15,711 nucleotides of DNA, taken from contig CALIVE010000021.1 in NCBI GenBank assembly GCA_938048445.1, forward strand, positions 1 to 15,711. Direction: 5' to 3'. The stretch comes from Minisyncoccota bacterium. Its GTDB lineage: Bacteria > Patescibacteriota > Minisyncoccia > UBA6257 > HR35. Position numbers and translations under genes: made by a program. The notes beneath the pieces are model-generated. The model was not told the origin of the DNA. It saw nothing but the letters and a program-made list of their open reading frames with translations, and searched no databases. Below, piece after piece: positions 5,043 to 13,591 of the stretch (the stretch's first letter is position 1; every line of letters begins with the position of its first letter).

Positions 5043-5600
5043 ATGGAATTAAGAGAAAAGTCTTTGGAGCTTATTAACAAATATTTAAAGAATGAAAATT
5101 TAAAAAAGCATTTATTAGCTACTGAGGCTTTGATGAGAGAATTAGCTAAAAAATTTAATGAGGATGAAGAAATTTGGGGAATTGCTGGTTTAATTCATGA
5201 TATTGACTGGGAACTTACAAAAGAAACTCCGGAAAAACATTCACTAATAGGAGCAGAGATTTTAGAGAAAGAAGGATTCCCAAAAGAAATTGTTGAGGCT
5301 GTAAGAAAACATAACCATATTCATAATTTTGAACCAAAAACTCTTTTAGAGAAAGCATTATATTCTTGTGAAGAAATGACAGGTTTTATAGTTGCGGTAG
5401 CCTTGGTTATGCCTAATAAAAGCTTAGATGAAGTGACAGTTGAAAGAATTATGAATAAATTCAAAGAACCATCTTTTGCTCGTGGAGTTAACAGAGAAAT
5501 TATCCAAAAATGTGAGGAGCTTTTAGGAATAACCGTTGAAGAGCTTGCTGAAATATGTTTAGAAGCTATGAAAAAAATTAGGGATAAGCTCGGCTTATAA
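5043..5600 (+). CDS. HD-domain (HDIG-type) phosphohydrolase-like protein
   Basis: A 185-residue single-domain member of the HD superfamily of metal-dependent phosphohydrolases. Metal-ligand candidates are H23 (KKHLLATEALM), H52-D53 (GLIHDIDWE), H66 (PEKHSLIGAEIL) and H90/H92 (VRKHNHIHN). The rest follows a widespread family of unassigned HD proteins: ALYSCEEMTGFIVAVALVMPNKSLDEVTVERIMNKFK, FARGVNREII and a C-terminal EAMKKIRDKLGL. The position before MTGF, usually aspartate in ALYxADELTGF, is glutamate here (E110-E111). The substrate is unknown; nucleotide or phosphodiester cleavage is the family expectation. The gene diverges from the secreted protein with 21 bases between starts. Its TAA stop is part of the TATAAT that probably drives tRNA-Val. 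Confidence 0.88.
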   Translation: MELREKSLELINKYLKNENLKKHLLATEALMRELAKKFNEDEEIWGIAGLIHDIDWELTKETPEKHSLIGAEILEKEGFPKEIVEAVRKHNHIHNFEPKTLLEKALYSCEEMTGFIVAVALVMPNKSLDEVTVERIMNKFKEPSFARGVNREIIQKCEELLGITVEELAEICLEAMKKIRDKLGL

Positions 5601-5601
5601 T
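5596..5601 (+). promoter_or_regulatory. -10 element for tRNA-Val, overlapping the upstream stop codon
   Basis: TATAAT contains the TAA stop of the HD gene (5598-5600). Its last base is followed by exactly 7 bases and then the first base of tRNA-Val (5609), the ideal distance for transcription to begin at the mature 5' end. No good -35 hexamer is visible in the A-rich stretch about 17 bases upstream. Confidence 0.6.
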
Positions 5602-5608
5602 TTTAATA

Positions 5609-5680
5609 GGGCGGGTAGCTCAGTGGCAGAGCGTCTCGCTTACAACGAGAAGGTCAGAGGTTCGATCCCTCTCCCGCCCA
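5609..5680 (+). tRNA. tRNA-Val (anticodon UAC)
   Basis: A complete cloverleaf of 72 bases. The acceptor stem is GGGCGGG/CCCGCCC, the D stem GCUC/GAGC, the anticodon stem UCUCG/CGAGA around loop CUUACAA (anticodon UAC, reads GUA and probably other GUN codons), and the T arm GAGGUUCGAUCCCUC. The discriminator is A5680. CCA is not encoded; the next bases are CATA and then the valS ATG. The tRNA is therefore directly upstream of the gene for the enzyme that charges it. Confidence 0.97.
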
Positions 5681-5684
5681 CATA

Positions 5685-7766
5685 ATGTTAAAGACAACAT
5701 ATAATCCCAAGGAAGTTGAAGAAAAAATTTACAAAAAGTGGCTTCCTTATTTAAAAGTTGAGAAACAAAAGGGCAAAGAATATTTTATTGCTTTAATGGC
5801 TCCGCCCAATGTCACTGGTTCTTTACATATGGGGCATGCTTTGCAAAATATCTTACTTGATATTCTATTAAGATATAAAAGGATGATTGGCTATAAAATT
5901 GTTTGGCTCCCTGGCTTAGACCATGCTGGAATTGCTACTCAAAATGTTGTTGAAAAAGAATTAAAAAAAGAAGGGCTAACAAGATTTGATTTAGGTAGAG
6001 AAAAATTCATAAAAAGGGTTTGGCAATGGAAAGAGAAATATGGAGGAATTATTTTAGAACAATTTAAAAGATTAGGGATATCTCCTGATTGGACAAGAAT
6101 TAAATTTACAATGGACAAAAAATATGTTGACTGGGTTGAAAAGGCTTTCATTGAATATTACAAAAAGGGGTGGGTTTATAGAGATTATCGAGCTATTAAC
6201 TATTGCCCACGCTGTCGAACAAGTCTTTCGGATTTAGAAATTGAATATGAACAAAAAGAATGCTATTTGTACTATATTAAATATCCTTTAAAAGATACTA
6301 AAGAATATTTAATTGTTGCGACAACAAGACCAGAAACAATGCTGGGAGATTCTGCTTTAGCTGTAAATCCTAATGACCAGAGATATCAAAAATATTGGGG
6401 GCAGATAGCCATTTTACCTATTGTCAATCGCGAATTATTAATAATAACTGACCAAAGGGTTAACCCAAAGTTTGGGACTGGAGTTTTAAAAGTTACTCCC
6501 GCTCATTCTATTTTAGACTATGAGATTGGTAAAAGACATAATCTTGAGATAATAAAAGTAATTGATGAAAATGCAAAGATTATCAATGTTAAAGATTTTG
6601 AAGGTTTAGATTATCTCTCGGCTCGAGAAAAAATTTTAAATATTTTAAAAGAAAAATCTCTTTTAGAAAAAGAAGAAAAAATTATTCATAATGTTCCTTA
6701 TTGCTATCGTTGTCACACTGAAATTCAAGTCATCCCTTCTCAAGAATGGTTTTTAAAGATGTCAGAATTAGCAAAATATGCTAAACAAGCTGTTAAAAAG
6801 AAATCAGTCTATATTTTTCCTAAAAGATTTAAAAAAATTTATTTTGATTGGCTAAAAAACATTAGAGACTGGTGTCTATCGCGTAAGATTTGGTGGGGGC
6901 AACAACTTCCTGTTTGGTACTGTAAAAATTGTGAAAATTCTTATGTTGTCAGCAGAAAAGCTCCAAAACAAAAATGTAAAAAATGCAAAAAAATAAAATG
7001 GTACCGCACTGAAGAGGTTTTTGATACTTGGTTTTCTTCAGCTTTATGGCCTTTTGCTATTTTATATACAAAAAAAGAGAAAGAATGGTATCCAGCTGAT
7101 GTTGTTTTTACAGCTCGGGATATTATTAATCTTTGGATTGCCAGAATGATTTTTTCAGGAATATTTTTTATGAAAAAACCTCCTTTTAAATTAGTTTATG
7201 TCCACCCCACTGTTTTAACCAAAGAAGGAAAAAGAATGTCAAAATCCTTAGGAACAGGTATTGATCCTTTAGATCTTATTGAAAAATATGGAGCTGATGC
7301 CCTAAGATTTGGCTTAACTTGGCAAACTACTTTTCTTCAAGACTTAAGATTTGATGAAACAAATATTGAAAATGGATTGAAATTTGCAAATAAAGTTTAT
7401 AATGCAGTTAGATTTTATTTAATAAGATATCCCCAAATGAAAAAAAGGGATGGATTTTCTACTCAAGATAAAAAAATAATAAAAGCTTTTAATGCTACAT
7501 TAAAATCAATGAAAAAAAATATCGAAAGCTTGAGGTTTTCTGAAGCCTTGAAAAAATTTTATAAATTCTTTTGGCATCAATTTTGCGATATTTACATAGA
7601 ATCTTGTAAAGAAAAGACCAATAATAACCCTGAGGTTTTAAAAATGGTAATAGTTAATTCTTTAAAAATTTTACATCCTTTTATGCCTTTTCTTACTGAA
7701 TATTTATGGAAAGAAATAGGTTGTAAAAATTTATTAATGCTTGAAGAGTGGCCACAGGAAATATAA
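5685..7766 (+). CDS. valS: Valyl-tRNA synthetase, short C-terminus
   Basis: This class I synthetase charges tRNA-Val. In order: N-terminal YNPKEVEEKIYKKW; catalytic PPNVTGSLHMGHAL with HMGH at 48-51; DHAGIATQ (79-86); CP1 editing domain with VATTRPETMLGDSALAVNP (211-229) and KVTPAHSILDYEIG; zinc-type pairs CPRC (174-177), CYRC (340-343), CKNC (413-416) and CKKC (431-434); RDWCLSRKIWWGQQLPVW; and the KMSKS loop as RMSKSLGTGIDPLD (517-530). The anticodon-binding helical domain follows, but the chain stops at EEWPQEI, residue 693. Typical bacterial ValRS is about 850-950 residues and carries a C-terminal coiled coil that clasps the tRNA; that part is absent here. ATG 5685 is the only sensible start and lies 4 bases after tRNA-Val, so no Shine-Dalgarno is possible outside the tRNA itself. 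Confidence 0.96.
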   Translation: MLKTTYNPKEVEEKIYKKWLPYLKVEKQKGKEYFIALMAPPNVTGSLHMGHALQNILLDILLRYKRMIGYKIVWLPGLDHAGIATQNVVEKELKKEGLTRFDLGREKFIKRVWQWKEKYGGIILEQFKRLGISPDWTRIKFTMDKKYVDWVEKAFIEYYKKGWVYRDYRAINYCPRCRTSLSDLEIEYEQKECYLYYIKYPLKDTKEYLIVATTRPETMLGDSALAVNPNDQRYQKYWGQIAILPIVNRELLIITDQRVNPKFGTGVLKVTPAHSILDYEIGKRHNLEIIKVIDENAKIINVKDFEGLDYLSAREKILNILKEKSLLEKEEKIIHNVPYCYRCHTEIQVIPSQEWFLKMSELAKYAKQAVKKKSVYIFPKRFKKIYFDWLKNIRDWCLSRKIWWGQQLPVWYCKNCENSYVVSRKAPKQKCKKCKKIKWYRTEEVFDTWFSSALWPFAILYTKKEKEWYPADVVFTARDIINLWIARMIFSGIFFMKKPPFKLVYVHPTVLTKEGKRMSKSLGTGIDPLDLIEKYGADALRFGLTWQTTFLQDLRFDETNIENGLKFANKVYNAVRFYLIRYPQMKKRDGFSTQDKKIIKAFNATLKSMKKNIESLRFSEALKKFYKFFWHQFCDIYIESCKEKTNNNPEVLKMVIVNSLKILHPFMPFLTEYLWKEIGCKNLLMLEEWPQEI

Positions 7767-8479
7767 CAACTTGTTTAAGCTACCCACATATTTTTCTCTT
7801 ATCTTTGGCAACATTTATACCTCTTTGGATTTGGCTTGAAATTATAATTAAAGCTGATCCTCACCCTGAACCAAAATTATTAATATTTTTTTCTATCTTA
7901 CTTGGATTTTTAGCAACAATTTTAAGTTATTACAGTGAGTTATTTCTTTATAACAAAATAGGAGATTTCAACAATATTTATTTTTTTTATTCAGCTTTTA
8001 TCGAAGAGTTTTTTAAATTTTTAGTTATTTTTTTATTTATTTTCCGTACAAAATATTTTGATGAACCAGTCGATGCTATGATCTATATGGGATTTTCAGC
8101 AATAGGCTTCAGTATTTTTGAAACCTTTGCTAATTTATGTAAAGTTTTACTAACAGAATTATATTTGCCTTTTTATAGCTTTTTCTTTGTTATAGTAGTT
8201 AGCGTTTTTAGATTTATAGGAGCAAATTTTTTACATATCTTAGCTTCAGCAATTATAGGCTTTGGATATGCATTTTCTATAAGAATGAGGAGAATTTACC
8301 CTTTTATTTTTTCTTTTCTTTCCTCAGTCTTTTTGCATTTTATTTATAATCTATTTATAATTAAAGAAGATATAAGCTTATATATCTTTCCGATTTTGTG
8401 GGCAATATTTTTTATAGTAATTATTCAATTAACAATTTTAAGAAAAGAAAATGGATTGGGAACACGAACATCCTATTAA
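7748..8479 (+). CDS. PrsW-family glutamic intramembrane protease
   Basis: A 243-residue membrane protein with about seven to eight hydrophobic segments. It carries the motifs of the PrsW group (RsiW-degrading site-1 protease of Bacillus and relatives in the glutamic intramembrane protease/CPBP clan): EEFFK at 86-90 with the E-E pair, FSIFE with E125 after DAMIYMGFSAIGF, H163 in GANFLHILASAIIGFGYA, and H197 in SVFLHFIYNLF. PrsW of Bacillus cleaves an anti-sigma factor; whether this one does is unknown, and no sigma/anti-sigma pair is in the window. The start is GTG 7748, overlapping the end of valS by 19 bases, because the next plausible codon (TTG 7805) would cut into the first membrane segment. 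It overlaps the hsp20 gene by 29 bases, so the three genes are probably coupled. Confidence 0.85.
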   Translation: MATGNITTCLSYPHIFLLSLATFIPLWIWLEIIIKADPHPEPKLLIFFSILLGFLATILSYYSELFLYNKIGDFNNIYFFYSAFIEEFFKFLVIFLFIFRTKYFDEPVDAMIYMGFSAIGFSIFETFANLCKVLLTELYLPFYSFFFVIVVSVFRFIGANFLHILASAIIGFGYAFSIRMRRIYPFIFSFLSSVFLHFIYNLFIIKEDISLYIFPILWAIFFIVIIQLTILRKENGLGTRTSY

Positions 8480-8819
8480 CCTAAGCGAGGAAGAAGGACA
8501 ATTAGCAGTTGATATCTATATAAAAGATGATGATTTAGTAATTGTTTCACCTATTTCTGGAGTAACAATGAATGATATCGAAATTTTAGTTCATGGCGAT
8601 ATGCTAATTATTCGCGGTAATCGTTTGCCTCCAGAAAATCCGAAAGTTACAGATTATTTATATCGAGAGTGTTATTGGGGTCCATTTTCAAAAACAATAA
8701 TCCTTCCCCGTGATGTAGATACTTCAAATATTAAAGCAAGTTTAAAAGATGGAATTTTAATTATAAGAATACCTAAGATTAAAACAGAAGGAGTTAAAAA
8801 AATCTCTATTGAAGATTAA
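8451..8819 (+). CDS. Small heat shock protein, Hsp20/alpha-crystallin family
   Basis: Hsp20 proteins are ATP-independent holdases that bind unfolding proteins and form oligomers. The 122-residue product has a short N-terminal arm, then an alpha-crystallin domain from about 17 to 110: GQLAVDIYIKDDDLVIVSPISGV, GDMLIIRGNR, YRECYWGPFSKTIILPRDVD and the signature ASLKDGILIIRIPK (96-109). The C-terminal I-S-I at 118-120 is the IxI motif that docks into neighbouring subunits. WGPFSRSIILP-type sequences are common in the Hsp20 proteins of candidate phyla. ATG 8451 lies 29 bases inside the PrsW gene; a later start would remove the first strand. Pairing with a membrane protease suggests a protein-quality unit, which is inference. 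Confidence 0.93.
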   Translation: MDWEHEHPINLSEEEGQLAVDIYIKDDDLVIVSPISGVTMNDIEILVHGDMLIIRGNRLPPENPKVTDYLYRECYWGPFSKTIILPRDVDTSNIKASLKDGILIIRIPKIKTEGVKKISIED

Positions 8820-8848
8820 ATCAATTTGAAATAAAATTTTAATAATAA

Positions 8849-8920
8849 GCGGCTGTAGCTCAGTGGTAGAGCGGGTGTCTTATAAACACCAGGTCGGAGG
8901 TTCGATCCCTCCCAGCCGCA
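8849..8920 (+). tRNA. tRNA-Ile (anticodon UAU)
   Basis: A complete 72-base cloverleaf: acceptor GCGGCUG/CAGCCGC, D stem GCUC/GAGC, anticodon stem GGUGU/ACACC around loop CUUAUAA, T arm GGAGGUUCGAUCCCUCC, discriminator A8920. The loop gives anticodon UAU, which reads the isoleucine codon AUA directly, with A37 and A38 as expected for tRNA-Ile. Most bacteria instead use a CAU anticodon converted by TilS to lysidine. CCA is not encoded: the base after the discriminator is the A of the next gene's ATG. Candidate -10 sequences upstream (TAAAAT 8832-8837, TTTAAT 8838-8843) are weak. Confidence 0.93.
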
Positions 8921-9280
8921 ATGAAAAATTTTCTTCTTGTTATTTTCATCTTGATAGTTTTTTCTAATAATATAACCTTTGCCCAAGGATTGCCTTTTGG
9001 AACCCCAAGAGTTGTTTGGATATCCCCATTTCCTTGTCTAAATGGTGGAGTAATGATTAAAGTCCAACCCCCTGTAGGAAGCCTTATACCACCTGGCCCT
9101 TATTTTGTCCCCATTGGCTCGAATAGATATTTAAATTTTGTTTACCCTCCAGTTCCAGGAACGAAAATGCTTGGCTGGTGGGTTCCTGGTGGAGTTTGTA
9201 TAAAACCTGCTTTTCCACATCCAATTCCAATACCTACTATTGGAACTATTACAGGCTACGGAAGTGCCTTAGGATTTTAG
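8921..9280 (+). CDS. Small secreted Pro/Gly-rich protein, unknown function
   Basis: A 119-residue protein with a clear signal peptide, MKNFLLVIFILIVFSNNITFAQG, with likely cleavage after TFA (residue 21). The mature part of about 98 residues is rich in Pro, Gly, Val and aromatic residues and has only two cysteines (C39 in PFPCLNGG and C93 in GGVCIKP), which could form one disulfide after export. The end PIPIPTIGTITGYGSALGF and the PPVG/PGPY pattern recall a type of small secreted protein I associate with Patescibacteria, but this is only an impression and no function follows. The ATG begins at the first base after the tRNA-Ile discriminator. The TAG stop overlaps the leuS stop on the other strand. 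Confidence 0.8.
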   Translation: MKNFLLVIFILIVFSNNITFAQGLPFGTPRVVWISPFPCLNGGVMIKVQPPVGSLIPPGPYFVPIGSNRYLNFVYPPVPGTKMLGWWVPGGVCIKPAFPHPIPIPTIGTITGYGSALGF

Positions 9281-11688
9281 TCTTTAGTAACAATATTAAG
9301 AATTTTATTTTGAACAAAGATAAATTTTTCTATAGTTTTATTTTGTAGAAATTTTTTAATTTTTTCTCTTTCTAAAGCTAATTTTTTTATTTCTTCAATC
9401 TGATAATCTGAAGGTACTAAGATTTCATCTCTTTTCTTACCATTTATTTCAATAATAATTTTCCTTTCTTCTTCAGAAATTAATTTCAAATCAGGTAAAG
9501 GCCATTTCTCTCTATCTAAAAATTTATTTTTATAGTAATGCGAGTAAATCTCTTGAGCGATATGAGGAGCAAATGGAAAAAGAAGTTTTATAAAAGTGAG
9601 CCAAGATTTTATAGAAATTTTTTTGTCGTAAACAAAATTCATAAACTCCATCATTGAGCTTATCGCAGTATTAAATTTCATAGCCTCTATATCTTCAGCA
9701 ACTTTTTTAATTAGTTTGTTGAGATTAATCTTTACTTCTAAGTTTTCTTTTTCAACTTTATATTTTTTAACTTTTTTATTATATTCCCAAATTTTATTTA
9801 AAAACCTAAAGACACCTATAATTCCATGGGTATCCCAAGATTTTACATCTTCTAATGGCCCCATAAACATTTCATACATCCTTAAAGTATCAGCACCATA
9901 TTTTTGAACAATCTCGTCAGGATTAATAACATTTCCTCTTGATTTAGACATCTTTTCTCGGTCAGGTCCTAAAATAATTCCTTGATTAACTAACTTAGTA
10001 AAAGGTTCATCAGTTGGTACTAAATTTAAATCATATAAAAATTTATGCCAAAATCTTGCATAAAGCAGGTGTAAAACAGCATGTTCAACTCCGCCAACAT
10101 ATATATCAACTGGAAGCCAATATTTTAATTTTTTGAAGTTAGCAAATTCTTTGTTATTTTTGGGATCAATATAACGCAAATAATACCAACAAGATCCTGC
10201 CCATTGAGGCATAGTATGAGATTCTCTTTCAGCATCACCTTTACATTTAGGACATTTTACTTTTATCCATTTTTTGATATTTTTTAAAGGAGACTCACCT
10301 GTACCAGTTGGTTCATAACTTTTTACCTTAGGCAATTTTAATGGTAATTCTTTTTCAGAAAGAGGGACTATACCACATTTGGGACATTTAATTAAAGGGA
10401 TTGGTTCTCCCCAGTATCTTTGTCGAGAAAATATCCAATCTCTTAATTTATAATAAACAGCTTTTTTTGCTAATCCTTTTTCTTCTAAAAATTTTCCAAT
10501 TTCTTCAATAGCTGTTTTAGAATCTAAACCATCATAATCAAAAGAATTTATTAAGTAACCATAATCTTCGAAGGGCAAACTTTGTGGTTCTTTGTTTTTT
10601 TCAGGAGAAACAACTGGTTTAATTTTTAGGTCAAATTTTTTAGCAAATCGATAGTCTCGTGCATCATGAGCAGGAACTCCCATTATGGCACCAGTTCCAT
10701 AATAATAGAAAACATAATCGCTAATCCATATAGGTAATTTCTCGCCTGTTAAAGGGTGGACCGCAAATCTTCCAGTAAATACACCTGAAATTTCCTCTTC
10801 CATTTTCCTTTCTCTTTCCGGTTTTTTTAAAATGTTTTCTAAATAATTCTCCACATTGAAAATATAATCTTCTTCCGGTATTTTTGTGCTTAAAGGATGT
10901 TCTGGTGCTAAAACAATAAAAGTTGCTCCAAAAATAGTATCAAGTCTTGTTGTAAAAATATTAATCTCCTCATCAGAACCCAAAATTTTAAAAGTTACTT
11001 CGTAACCTTCACTTTTACCAATCCAATTTCTTTGCATAGTTTTTACATTCTCTGGCCAATCTAATTTTTCTAAATCTTGTAAAAGCCTTTCAGCATAAGC
11101 AGTAATTCTTATGTGCCATTGATTAAGATATTTAATTTGCGTTGGGGTATTACACCTTTCACATCTTCCATTAACAATTTCTTCATTAGCTAAACCTGTT
11201 TTACAGGAGGGACAAAAATTAATAGGCGCTGTTTTTTCATAAACCAATCCTTTTTCATACATTTTTAAAAACATCCATTGGGTCCATTTATAGTAATTAG
11301 GATCTGTAGTATTTATTTCTCGATTCCAATCATAGCTTAGTCCTAACATTTCCATTTGTTTTTTATACCTTTTAATATTTTTAGGAACAAAAGTCATTGG
11401 ATTTTTTTTCATTTTTAAAGCATAGTTTTCAGCTGGTAAACCAAAAGCATCCCAACCCATTGGATGCAAAACATTATATCCTCTCATACGGTAATAACGA
11501 GCTAAAATGTCAGTTGCAGTATATCCTTCAACATGACCAACATGTAATCCTTCGCCTGAAGGGTAGGGAAACATATCTAAAATATAAATCTTCTTACCTT
11601 TGAAATCTTGAGCTTGCCAAAGTTTATATTTATTCTTTTTCCAGATTTTTTGCCACTTTTTTTCTATTTTCTTAAAGGGATAACTCAT
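9277..11688 (-). CDS. leuS: Leucyl-tRNA synthetase
   Basis: This class I synthetase charges tRNA-Leu and hydrolyses mischarged products. Taking ATG 11688 (MSYPFKKIEKKWQKIW) as the start gives 803 residues; an in-frame upstream extension of 14 hydrophobic residues reaches 11730 but has no counterpart in the family and would cross the promoter region. Features: FPYPSGEGLHVGHVEGY with HVGH at 49-52; GWDAFGLPAENYA (78-90); a zinc knuckle with CPSC and CERC (159-179); CP1 editing domain with FTTRLDTIFG (245-254) and GTGAIMGVPAHDARD (331-345); RDWIFSRQRYWGEPIP; a second Cys set, CPKC at 435-438 and 479-482; WAGSCWYYLRYIDP; and EKMSKSRGNVINPDEI with KMSKS at 579-583. A helical anticodon domain and a small C-terminal domain (EIKKLALEREKIKKFLQ) follow. 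Length is slightly below the usual 820-880. It converges with the secreted-protein gene. Confidence 0.96.
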   Translation of the reverse strand: MSYPFKKIEKKWQKIWKKNKYKLWQAQDFKGKKIYILDMFPYPSGEGLHVGHVEGYTATDILARYYRMRGYNVLHPMGWDAFGLPAENYALKMKKNPMTFVPKNIKRYKKQMEMLGLSYDWNREINTTDPNYYKWTQWMFLKMYEKGLVYEKTAPINFCPSCKTGLANEEIVNGRCERCNTPTQIKYLNQWHIRITAYAERLLQDLEKLDWPENVKTMQRNWIGKSEGYEVTFKILGSDEEINIFTTRLDTIFGATFIVLAPEHPLSTKIPEEDYIFNVENYLENILKKPERERKMEEEISGVFTGRFAVHPLTGEKLPIWISDYVFYYYGTGAIMGVPAHDARDYRFAKKFDLKIKPVVSPEKNKEPQSLPFEDYGYLINSFDYDGLDSKTAIEEIGKFLEEKGLAKKAVYYKLRDWIFSRQRYWGEPIPLIKCPKCGIVPLSEKELPLKLPKVKSYEPTGTGESPLKNIKKWIKVKCPKCKGDAERESHTMPQWAGSCWYYLRYIDPKNNKEFANFKKLKYWLPVDIYVGGVEHAVLHLLYARFWHKFLYDLNLVPTDEPFTKLVNQGIILGPDREKMSKSRGNVINPDEIVQKYGADTLRMYEMFMGPLEDVKSWDTHGIIGVFRFLNKIWEYNKKVKKYKVEKENLEVKINLNKLIKKVAEDIEAMKFNTAISSMMEFMNFVYDKKISIKSWLTFIKLLFPFAPHIAQEIYSHYYKNKFLDREKWPLPDLKLISEEERKIIIEINGKKRDEILVPSDYQIEEIKKLALEREKIKKFLQNKTIEKFIFVQNKILNIVTKD

Positions 11689-11701
11689 TTTAATTAAAAA
11701 T

Positions 11702-11707
11702 ATTATA
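11702..11707 (-). promoter_or_regulatory. Probable -10 element for leuS
   Basis: On the minus strand TATAAT lies 13 bases before the leuS ATG (11688), so the leader should be about 5-7 bases. The 35-base gap to the divergent gene is nearly all A/T and contains no Shine-Dalgarno. Confidence 0.45.
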
Positions 11708-11710
11708 AAA

Positions 11711-11716
11711 TATAAA
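11711..11716 (+). promoter_or_regulatory. Probable -10 element for the PH-like membrane protein gene
   Basis: TATAAA is followed by 7 bases and then ATG at 11724, so transcription would start at or next to the initiation codon. A second TATAAA at 11704-11709 is an alternative that would give a leader of about 7 bases. Confidence 0.45.
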
Positions 11717-11723
11717 TAATAAT

Positions 11724-12209
11724 ATGCCAAAAACTGAAGATATTCCTAAATTTTCCTTAAGTTGGACAACTCTTTCCCATGATGAACATCCTTACGGTGA
11801 TATATTGTGGCATTTATTTTGGGGAATTGTAATTGGGTTTTCAATTTTATATGCAATAATTAGCAAAGACTTTCTTTACTTGGTAATATCCTTAATAGCC
11901 CTTTTTTTCTTTTTTCATCCGATTTTTTATGAAGAAAAAGAGTTAAAAATAAAAATTGATCAAACTGGTATTTATGTAGATGAAAAAAAATATAACTGGG
12001 AAGATATTATAGGCTTTGAAATTTTAAAAATAAAAAATAAAGTTTACCTCTATTTTATACCTAAGCACATTTTCGCTATAGGTCCAATTATTCCCTTTGA
12101 AGATTATATATCCTATGAAGAAGTTAGAAAAATTTTAAGACAGTTTTTAGATGAATATGAAAATTCTGTTGCACTTTGGGAAATTATTTATCGAAAATAT
12201 TTTCAATGA
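11724..12209 (+). CDS. Membrane protein with two transmembrane helices and a PH-like domain
   Basis: A 161-residue protein of unknown function. A polar N-terminus (1-25) precedes two membrane segments, about 29-47 (LWHLFWGIVIGFSILYAII) and 50-68 (FLYLVISLIALFFFFHPIF). After these comes a soluble domain (72-150) with the pattern of bacterial PH-like domains: KIKIDQTGIYVDEKKYNWEDIIGFEIL, short strands with YLYFIPK, and a final helix YEEVRKILRQFLDEY. The tail is presumably cytoplasmic. Comparable two-TM plus PH-like proteins exist in many bacteria without a known role; the domain call is by pattern only. The stop overlaps the start of the yraN-like gene by ATGA. It diverges from leuS with 35 bases between starts. 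Confidence 0.78.
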   Translation: MPKTEDIPKFSLSWTTLSHDEHPYGDILWHLFWGIVIGFSILYAIISKDFLYLVISLIALFFFFHPIFYEEKELKIKIDQTGIYVDEKKYNWEDIIGFEILKIKNKVYLYFIPKHIFAIGPIIPFEDYISYEEVRKILRQFLDEYENSVALWEIIYRKYFQ

Positions 12210-12541
12210 TAAAAATTGGTAGATTAGGTGAAAGAATTGTTGAAAAATATCTTATCAATAAAGGACATAGGATTATAGGTAAAAATATTTGGTTAAAAAA
12301 ATTTGGAGAGGTAGATTTAATTACTCAAAAAGATGATGTTTTTTATTTTGTTGAAGTAAAGGCTTTAAAAGAAAATGAAAATTTTACTCCTGAGATTCAT
12401 TATAGCTTGAAAAAAAGAAAAAAATTCCATAACCTTATAAGCTATTTTGTAAATAAATATGATATTAAAGAATTTAAATCTTTATTAGCAACTGTAAAAG
12501 TTGGAAAGAAAATAAAGATAAAGATTTATGAAAATGTATAG
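12206..12541 (+). CDS. yraN: YraN/UPF0102 family, nuclease-fold protein
   Basis: A 111-residue protein with the pattern of UPF0102 (YraN), small proteins with an endonuclease-like (PD-(D/E)xK) fold and no settled function. The N-terminal helix GRLGERIVEKYLINKGHRII matches the usual GxxGExxAxxyLxxxGyxil. It is followed by FGEVDLITQKDDVFYFVEVKA, where E and D of GEVDLI and the E-K of VEVK are the expected catalytic-type residues. After VEVK the family often has arginine; here it is A-L. ATG 12206 is chosen because it overlaps the previous stop by ATGA and gives the family N-terminus; an upstream TTG (12176) would only add residues inside the previous gene. The end overlaps the FtsB-like gene by 14 bases. 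Confidence 0.88.
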   Translation: MIKIGRLGERIVEKYLINKGHRIIGKNIWLKKFGEVDLITQKDDVFYFVEVKALKENENFTPEIHYSLKKRKKFHNLISYFVNKYDIKEFKSLLATVKVGKKIKIKIYENV

Positions 12542-12809
12542 ATTTTATAAACTTTTACTAATTTTGGAAATCTTAATTATCATTTATTTAGGATTTTTAA
12601 TTAAAAAAGAATGGGATAGGAATAAACCCTTGAAATTAGAATTTGCTACTTATAAAAGTTACTTTGAAAGGAGAAAAAAAGAAAATGAAGAATTATTAAA
12701 AAGAGTTGAATATCTTAAAGATCCTGAAAATTTTAAAAAGGAATTAAAAGAAAAATTTAATATTGTTGAGCCTGGTGAAAAGGTAATTATTTTACCAGAA
12801 AATTTTTAA
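12528..12809 (+). CDS. FtsB/DivIC-like septum formation protein
   Basis: A 93-residue single-pass membrane protein with the architecture of the FtsB/DivIC division proteins: a short cytoplasmic N-terminus, a membrane helix at about 8-24 (KLLLILEILIIIYLGFL), a coiled coil at about 36-64 (KLEFATYKSYFERRKKENEELLKRVEYL), and the characteristic DPENFKKELKEKFNIVEPGEKVIILPE, matching the family DPxyiExxARexlgmvkpGE. These proteins bridge FtsL and FtsQ in the divisome and help activate septal peptidoglycan synthesis. ATG 12528 overlaps yraN by 14 bases; a second ATG at 12534 is two codons in. A run of A/T-only sequence follows the stop before tRNA-Thr. Confidence 0.85.
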   Translation: MKMYRFYKLLLILEILIIIYLGFLIKKEWDRNKPLKLEFATYKSYFERRKKENEELLKRVEYLKDPENFKKELKEKFNIVEPGEKVIILPENF

Positions 12810-12831
12810 AATTTTTTAAAATTTTATTAGA

Positions 12832-12903
12832 GCCAGTATAGCTCAATGGGAGAGCGACCGCTTCGTAAGCGGTAGGTTGCGGGTTCGAATCCCGCTACTG
12901 GCT
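12832..12903 (+). tRNA. tRNA-Thr (anticodon CGU)
   Basis: A complete 72-base cloverleaf: acceptor GCCAGUA/UACUGGC, D stem GCUC/GAGC, anticodon stem ACCGC/GCGGU around loop UUCGUAA (anticodon CGU, reads the threonine codon ACG), T arm CGGGUUCGAAUCCCG, discriminator U12903. CCA is not encoded. One base (A12904) separates it from the ATG of the next gene. Upstream sequence is low-complexity A/T, with TAAAAT (12817-12822) nine bases before the tRNA as a weak -10 candidate. Confidence 0.96.
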
Positions 12904-12904
12904 A

Positions 12905-13591
12905 ATGAAGGAAATTTTAAAAGACATCATAAATTGGATAAAAAAGAGGAAATTTGTTTGGATTTTATTTTTAATATTTTTTATTTTATTTAGTATAGGA
13001 ATCAAGCAATTAATCAATCAAAAAATTAAAAAGGAAAACTTGAAAGTAGCATCTAAAAAAGCATTAGAATTATATAAAAAAGAATTAGAAAAGTATCCTG
13101 AATTTAAAGATTTAATGAAAATTTTAGATCCCAAAAACACTCTTGCTATTGAAAAACAATTCTATACACTTTTAAGAGCTGAACTTTTATCATCAGGAGT
13201 TAAAAAAATTGAAATTGAAGCACAACTTCTTAAAGAAATTCAAGATATTCTTAAAAATATTGTTGTTGATGAAACAAAAAGTAATTTCGAATATGCTAAT
13301 GAATTTAGAAAAGAAATTGAAAAAATAAAATTAATAAATCTGGATTTTAAGGATAAAAATAATTTAGCTATGTCTGGAGAATTTATTTTAAATGTTGCTA
13401 AAAACCTTTCCAATATCAAGCCAACAAAAAATTATTATGAATTTCATAAAGGAGAGGTACTATTATTAGCTATGATGGGTAAAGCTTTAATAAAGCTTGC
13501 TAACACGAATGACTACGAAGAAGCTATTGCTCTTTCTCTGATTTTAAATAATTTAGCTGATTTACAAGAAGAAATTCTTAAAAGATTATGA
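12905..13591 (+). CDS. Membrane-anchored helical protein, unknown function
   Basis: A 228-residue protein that I do not recognise. A basic N-terminus (MKEILKDIINWIKKRKF) is followed by one membrane helix at about 18-34 (VWILFLIFFILFSIGI), without a signal-peptidase site, so it is probably anchored with the C-terminal part outside. The remaining 190 residues are helical and charged, for example SKKALELYKKELEKYPEFKDLMK, GEFILNVAKNLSNIKP and YEEAIALSLILNNLADLQEEIL. The repeated helical pattern could be TPR-like but no clear repeat unit was found. There is no cysteine. ATG 12905 lies one base after tRNA-Thr; no other start is near. The stop overlaps the next gene's ATG (ATGA), tying it to the large secreted protein. 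Confidence 0.78.
   Translation: MKEILKDIINWIKKRKFVWILFLIFFILFSIGIKQLINQKIKKENLKVASKKALELYKKELEKYPEFKDLMKILDPKNTLAIEKQFYTLLRAELLSSGVKKIEIEAQLLKEIQDILKNIVVDETKSNFEYANEFRKEIEKIKLINLDFKDKNNLAMSGEFILNVAKNLSNIKPTKNYYEFHKGEVLLLAMMGKALIKLANTNDYEEAIALSLILNNLADLQEEILKRL

Follow-up and report, generated by a model that had tools for sequence, protein, structure and literature searches.

tRNA genes ending directly before protein start codons in a Parcubacteria-type family: possible tRNA punctuation and leaderless messages

Results

tRNA genes and start codons in the window

The stretch of DNA considered here, called the window, covers positions 1 to 15,711 of contig CALIVE010000021.1 (15,711 nucleotides (nt); assembly GCA_938048445.1) from a Minisyncoccota bacterium, a Parcubacteria-type member of the Patescibacteria, and each of its three tRNA genes, all on the plus strand (ARAGORN, Rfam), is followed almost at once by the ATG of a protein gene (Table 1). 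A preliminary description of the window had proposed that the three tRNAs end 0-4 nt before such an ATG, and this was borne out for genuine genes by gaps of 4, 0 and 1 nt, counted to the discriminator base (ARAGORN's own ends are 5681 for tRNA-Val and 12904 for tRNA-Thr). None of the three tRNAs encodes CCA. The description had held that no leader or Shine-Dalgarno (SD) sequence can fit here, and AGGA, GGAG and GAGG are indeed absent from the 20 nt before each of the three ATGs. No alternative ATG, GTG or TTG lies between any of these ATGs and the nearest upstream in-frame stop. Furthermore, valS starts with MLKTTYNPKEVEEKIYKKW in the window and with MLGSRYNPQEIEEKIYKKW in a genome of the same genus (G001), and the proteins linked to tRNA-Ile and tRNA-Thr have comparable starts with a hydrophobic N-terminal stretch across the four family genomes described below; this homology of the N-termini supports the three start assignments.

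Table 1. Promoter boxes, tRNA genes, gaps and protein genes at the three loci of the window (aa, amino acids).
Feature	Position	Strand	Evidence or remark
TATAAT -10 box before tRNA-Val	5596..5601	+	exact match, -13 from tRNA 5' end
tRNA-Val (TAC), discriminator A5680	5609..5680	+	ARAGORN, Rfam
tRNA-Val/valS gap, CATA, 4 nt	5681..5684	+	
valS, valine--tRNA ligase, 693 aa, short C-terminus	5685..7766	+	NCBIfam NF004349 889 bits, TIGR00422 842 bits
TAAAAT -10-like box before tRNA-Ile	8832..8837	+	one mismatch, -17 from tRNA 5' end
tRNA-Ile (TAT), discriminator A8920	8849..8920	+	ARAGORN, Rfam
119-aa protein, signal-peptide-like start, ATG 8921	8921..9280	+	gap 0 after tRNA-Ile
TAAAAT -10-like box before tRNA-Thr	12817..12822	+	one mismatch, -15 from tRNA 5' end
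tRNA-Thr (CGT), discriminator T12903	12832..12903	+	ARAGORN, Rfam
tRNA-Thr/ATG gap, single A, 1 nt	12904..12904	+	
Membrane-type protein, 228 aa, ATG 12905	12905..13591	+	gap 1 nt after tRNA-Thr

Short gaps across the family

The surroundings of tRNA genes were taken from the draft genome to which the window belongs (G000; 638 kb, 95% complete), from G001 and from two further genomes of the same family (G003 and G008). Rfam listed 39, 44, 43 and 44 tRNAs in these genomes, of which 38, 41, 41 and 42 were kept once one unclear tRNA and repeats with identical letters had been dropped, and 37, 41, 41 and 42 (161 in total) were flanked by enough sequence for evaluation; two tRNAs at contig ends of G000 (Pro GGG and Ser TGA) are each found two times, perhaps through duplication in the assembly. 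For the statistics, a gene was taken to start at the first ATG of a long frame, without curation. ATGs opening at least 60 aa were found 0-5 nt behind the tRNA in 16 cases and 6-15 nt behind it in 26, where 3.0 (0-5 nt) and 8.0 (0-15 nt) would be expected from the density at a distance of 64-159 nt (Poisson P of ~1e-7 and ~2e-17, values that are too small, as orthologous pairs are not independent). The survey of tRNA-to-ATG distances in related genomes that the preliminary description had suggested thus does reveal enrichment at 0-5 nt. In the mirror control, an opposite-strand ATG within 15 nt before the tRNA 5' end was seen in 0/156 cases. The abutment of tRNA and ATG is therefore neither a matter of chance nor restricted to the window, which is nonetheless a rich spot, holding 3 of the 5 gaps of at most 4 nt among the 16 pairs of tRNA and coding sequence (CDS) evaluated in its genome.

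When only same-strand pairs were counted, with the longest frame taken for each tRNA, the gap was at most 15 nt in 42/69 pairs of the family, in 4/22 from other families of the order, in 3/16 from the rest of the phylum and in 0/8 from Thermobrachium, Limosilactobacillus and Sulfurovum. The Fisher P values for the family against order, phylum and unrelated genomes (5e-4, 0.004 and 0.001) are uncorrected for shared ancestry and set nearly all family tRNAs against smaller, score-chosen controls, each group comprising 30 loci with top-scoring tRNAs. A GTDB scan for tRNA ends lying 0-3 nt before ATGAAA returned such letters from many phyla, only 15/80 of the returned loci opening at least 60 aa.

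The base after the discriminator is A in 79, C in 64, T in 18 and G in 1 of 162 tRNAs of the four family genomes. Elsewhere in the order it is C in 46/49 tRNAs, and a full CCA is encoded in 13/49, which suggests that tRNAs there either keep part of CCA or are cut differently.

Conserved tRNA-gene pairs

The same tRNA precedes the same gene in 14 ortholog groups, which account for 37/76 pairs and are each represented in 2-4 genomes. Gaps between tRNA-Lys and rplS are 1, 2, 1 and 1 nt; those of tRNA-Ile(TAT) to the 119-aa protein (0, 0, 4 and 12 nt) and of tRNA-Thr(CGT) to the 228-aa protein (1, 5, 4 and 22 nt) could be followed through all four family genomes. Further pairs are tRNA-Met/mnmA (2 and 0 nt), tRNA-Leu/infB (10, 8 and 10 nt) and tRNA-Pro/infA (14 and 14 nt), while tRNA-Val/valS was seen in two genomes only, with gaps of 4 nt (G000) and 30 nt (G001). 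As the gap letters vary among orthologs, it is the arrangement that has been kept and not a leader motif. The names valS and CCA-adding domain rest on model matches (NF004349 and PF01743); rplS, infA, infB and mnmA are names that we assign from the sequences alone and thus presume. A tRNA gene, that of tRNA-Gly(CCC), also precedes the gene of the CCA-adding enzyme, by which these tRNAs would be completed, in G008, G003 and G012 (gaps of 9, 13 and 9 nt); in G001 the gene of the enzyme does not lie beside tRNA-Gly.

Translation start signals

SD-like words are rare in the family, occurring in 4/124 genes with an opposite-strand neighbour (shuffled 1.4) and in 2/83 genes after a longer same-strand gap (shuffled 2.2), while the same test in the unrelated genomes gave 4/13 (shuffled 2.2) and 6/8 (shuffled 2.1), respectively. 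What does precede many family genes is a -10-like box starting 17-11 nt before the ATG, found in 58/124 genes with an opposite-strand neighbour (control bins 16-28) and in 36/83 after a longer same-strand gap (control bins 6-14); in a similar count over 96 genes, the box was most frequent at -12. Consensus sequences served for the -10 box and the T-loop, and a set of words for SD. A box placed 11-17 nt before the ATG is, as judged from its letters, the layout of a leaderless promoter.

The canonical 16S rRNA tail is GGATCACCTCC. In 3/3 relatives (G001, G003 and G008; L350, L351 and L352) it reads GGACCAATTCT, with no CCTCC anti-SD, while a genome of the same phylum (G071, L294) keeps a normal tail, reading GGATCACCTCCTTTC. 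The loss was read in these three relatives, the 16S stretch of the window's own genome ending after model position 423. By the evidence of these tails and gene starts, the family appears to have abandoned SD initiation, the anti-SD being lost in the three relatives. The tail of a named Patescibacteria contig (L150), GGATTAATTC, is also without an anti-SD.

Promoters at the tRNA genes

Among family tRNAs that are not preceded by another tRNA, 79/124 have a -10-like box starting at -22 to -9, with 4-15 box starts per position at -22 to -13 against 1-5 farther out. At -17 to -11 from the ATG, the leaderless position, such a box was found in 0/35 genes lying at most 12 nt behind a tRNA, a count that mainly reflects box-free tRNA bodies, as control bins inside tRNAs also gave 0. 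With a box before the tRNA and none between tRNA and gene, transcription at short gaps most likely begins just before the tRNA and continues into the gene.

The tRNA 3' end

The preliminary description had attributed to RNase Z the cut just after the discriminator of tRNAs without encoded CCA, in keeping with what is generally understood of the chemistry of this enzyme, and had proposed that such processing could create leaderless messages. The leaderless part of that proposal has good support from the sequence features above, but the part assigned to RNase Z found no support, as a canonical RNase Z, taken as a 300-aa protein of the metallo-beta-lactamase (MBL) type matching the full TIGR02651 model, was not found among 17 genomes of the family and order, where no match exceeded the cut-off of 292.95 and the best reached 31.6 bits. 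The 11 family genomes gave partial matches of 18-32 bits, which lie in open frames 393-606 aa long. Across the phylum, 0/59 genomes pass the cut-off, which is strict, being passed by 9/14 control genomes; however, matches of 66-106 bits in frames of 257-279 aa, read as RNase Z, occur in 6/59, so the search was able to detect divergent forms of the enzyme. RNase P RNA was found in G000, and the CCA-adding domain (PF01743) in G001, G003 and G008.

The RNase Z-model matches of G000 and G001 were the two that were typed, and both were rejected as RNase Z. That of G001, in a 600-aa frame, scores 498 bits with TIGR00649, more than its cut-off, and is an RNase J. The match in G000 is a 447-aa beta-CASP protein (L346:1885-3228) resembling Cas14 and aCPSF1 (405 and 292 bits, both below the model cut-offs); it lies closest to the type VII CRISPR Cas14 model and lacks the N-terminal portion of the aCPSF1 model. 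The cutter is probably not a canonical RNase Z; for the 3' cut, the aCPSF1-like beta-CASP protein and RNase J are no more than candidates.

Discussion

A model of expression through tRNA maturation

The present data allow a model to be proposed for the way in which these protein genes are expressed. About half of the genes heading transcription units have a -10 box placed 11-17 nt upstream of the ATG, and their mRNAs are expected to begin with the AUG or a few nt ahead of it. Many tRNAs would have the promoter in front of them, and RNA polymerase would read through the tRNA into the protein gene behind it. Maturation of the tRNA 3' end would then cut the transcript after the discriminator, yielding a tRNA ready for CCA addition and, from the same cut, an mRNA with 0-15 nt before its AUG, which could be translated as a leaderless message. 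The scheme would amount to a mitochondria-like tRNA punctuation. An AUG that directly follows a folded acceptor stem, and that must be found by a ribosome without an anti-SD, suggests a cut between stem and AUG. Co-transcription, the cut and the leaderless translation of its product are what we infer from sequence, and we hold with moderate confidence that tRNA-mRNA co-transcripts are cut at the tRNA 3' end into leaderless mRNAs.

Several observations weigh against this model. More than a third of the same-strand gaps in the family (27/69) exceed 15 nt, and the valS gap reaches 30 nt already within the genus. No RNase Z that would make a precise 3' cut was found, and the draft genome of the window yielded no CCA-adding domain. 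Among genes lying more than 12 nt behind a tRNA, 8/37 carry the leaderless box (control bins 0-4), so some tRNA-linked genes own a promoter. In the other families of the order, leaderless-type boxes precede 10/26 genes after a longer same-strand gap (control 1-2), and 6/39 with an opposite-strand neighbour, not above control (1-10); since short tRNA gaps are few there, the pattern does not follow from leaderless initiation by itself.

Alternative explanations

It is also conceivable, if rather improbable in our judgement, that the pattern results from passive compaction, in which SD and leader were lost, deletions shrank the intergenic stretches, and read-through and release of the mRNA are incidental, with nothing tuned or regulated. 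CDS-CDS gaps in these genomes are likewise often short or negative, which also counts against the model of punctuation, and orthologous pairs drift in gap letters and lengths. However, compaction alone leaves the translation of a tRNA-linked AUG unexplained and needs the same cut, while the 14 ortholog groups of kept pairs suggest some selection, although synteny among close relatives would give the same. An unlikely further scenario dispenses with the cut: the tRNA would stay on as a structured 5' leader, the AUG would be used as an internal SD-less start, and exonucleases would trim the tRNA later, during mRNA decay. Exonucleolytic trimming followed by CCA addition would need no RNase Z, in agreement with the failure to find one, and operon-internal genes must start without SD in any case. 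At gaps of 0-4 nt, however, the folded acceptor stem would be expected to occupy the upstream mRNA path of the ribosome, and the supply of tRNA would hang on mRNA decay.

Leaderless-type promoters are common enough in these genomes that each downstream gene could be imagined to have a promoter of its own inside the tRNA gene, giving a primary leaderless transcript, and this may hold in some cases at gaps beyond 12 nt, where 8/37 genes have the box. As a general account it is very improbable, as the box was seen in none of the 35 tRNA-abutting genes, box-free as tRNA bodies generally are, against 58 of the 124 genes with an opposite-strand neighbour. Cutting of co-transcripts at the tRNA 3' end remains the reading that we prefer. 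A bolder version of it, in which the lineage has re-invented a mitochondrial style of expression, having lost both anti-SD and canonical RNase Z, with another nuclease (for example, an aCPSF1-like beta-CASP protein) maturing the tRNAs, thereby creating leaderless mRNAs for core genes (among them valS, rplS, infA, infB, mnmA and, in certain members, the gene of the CCA-adding enzyme) and tying their output to tRNA processing, is possible but can be held only tentatively, and we rather doubt it.

Relation to known systems

Mitochondrial transcripts are punctuated by tRNAs. As in mitochondria, tRNAs of the family abut protein genes (a same-strand CDS starts within 15 nt of 42/161 tRNAs and within 5 nt of 16), there is no SD system, and excision of the tRNAs would give leaderless mRNAs. 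The present case differs in that it concerns a bacterium with a promoter before many of its tRNAs, in which only part of the genes is involved, and in that RNase P RNA was found but no canonical (ELAC-type) RNase Z in the 17 genomes. Mycobacteria are reportedly rich in leaderless mRNAs. In mitochondria, tRNA 3' ends are processed by ELAC2 (PMC11996679), and Streptomyces is likewise rich in leaderless mRNAs (PMC4681348). The predicted mRNAs resemble those of mycobacteria and Streptomyces in beginning at or close to the AUG of genes without SD; however, leaderless ends in those bacteria are mapped transcription start sites, while a second route via tRNA ends is proposed here, and the anti-SD itself has been lost here, as read in the three relatives.

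Loss of the anti-SD has been described for 128 organisms, which are generally without SD and belong mainly to Bacteroidetes, Mycoplasma and Carsonella (PMC6107228). In common with them, the 16S tails of the three relatives lack CCUCC and the genes of the family lack SD, but the family falls outside the groups mainly named there, and the word Parcubacteria is absent from the consulted main text of that paper. Dicistronic tRNA-mRNA transcripts are known from plants (PMC8166872), and a tRNA and an mRNA on one transcript are what is envisaged here as well; the role proposed in plants is RNA mobility, however, and not the making of a leaderless start. Bacteria of the candidate phyla radiation (CPR) keep RNase J, RNase III and PNPase according to the consulted parts of PMC12641178, which also mention YchF and leaderless mRNA. 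The Mollicutes encode CCA and dispense with both RNase Z and the CCA enzyme (PMC4014445), a route to the loss of RNase Z that differs from that of the present family. A review of leaderless translation (PMC9031893) names no tRNA-derived leaderless ends in the parts consulted, and no precedent for bacterial tRNA punctuation or for leaderless messages from tRNA-mRNA transcripts was found in the open-access literature, as far as it was consulted.

Further features of the window

The -10 box before tRNA-Val shares bases with the stop codon of an HD-domain gene lying upstream. The tRNA in front of valS is that of its own amino acid. The valS product matches positions 2-697 of an 860-position model, so that the C-terminal region is missing; its closest relatives (the best 120 of 7783) are of similar length, and those named among them are records of Candidatus Parcubacteria and Patescibacteria. 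At E 0.01 the 119-aa protein matches neither Pfam nor NCBIfam, and for it and the 228-aa protein together there is no accepted family match, only one Pfam match below threshold. The stop of the 228-aa gene overlaps the ATG of the next gene at 13588. On the minus strand, a 5S rRNA gene (2329-2443) ends 17 nt before an ATG at 2311 (the whole stretch being 2312-2443) that opens what we take from the sequence to be rpsF, followed by presumed ssb- and recA-like genes, and stable RNAs other than tRNAs may thus also stand directly before protein genes.

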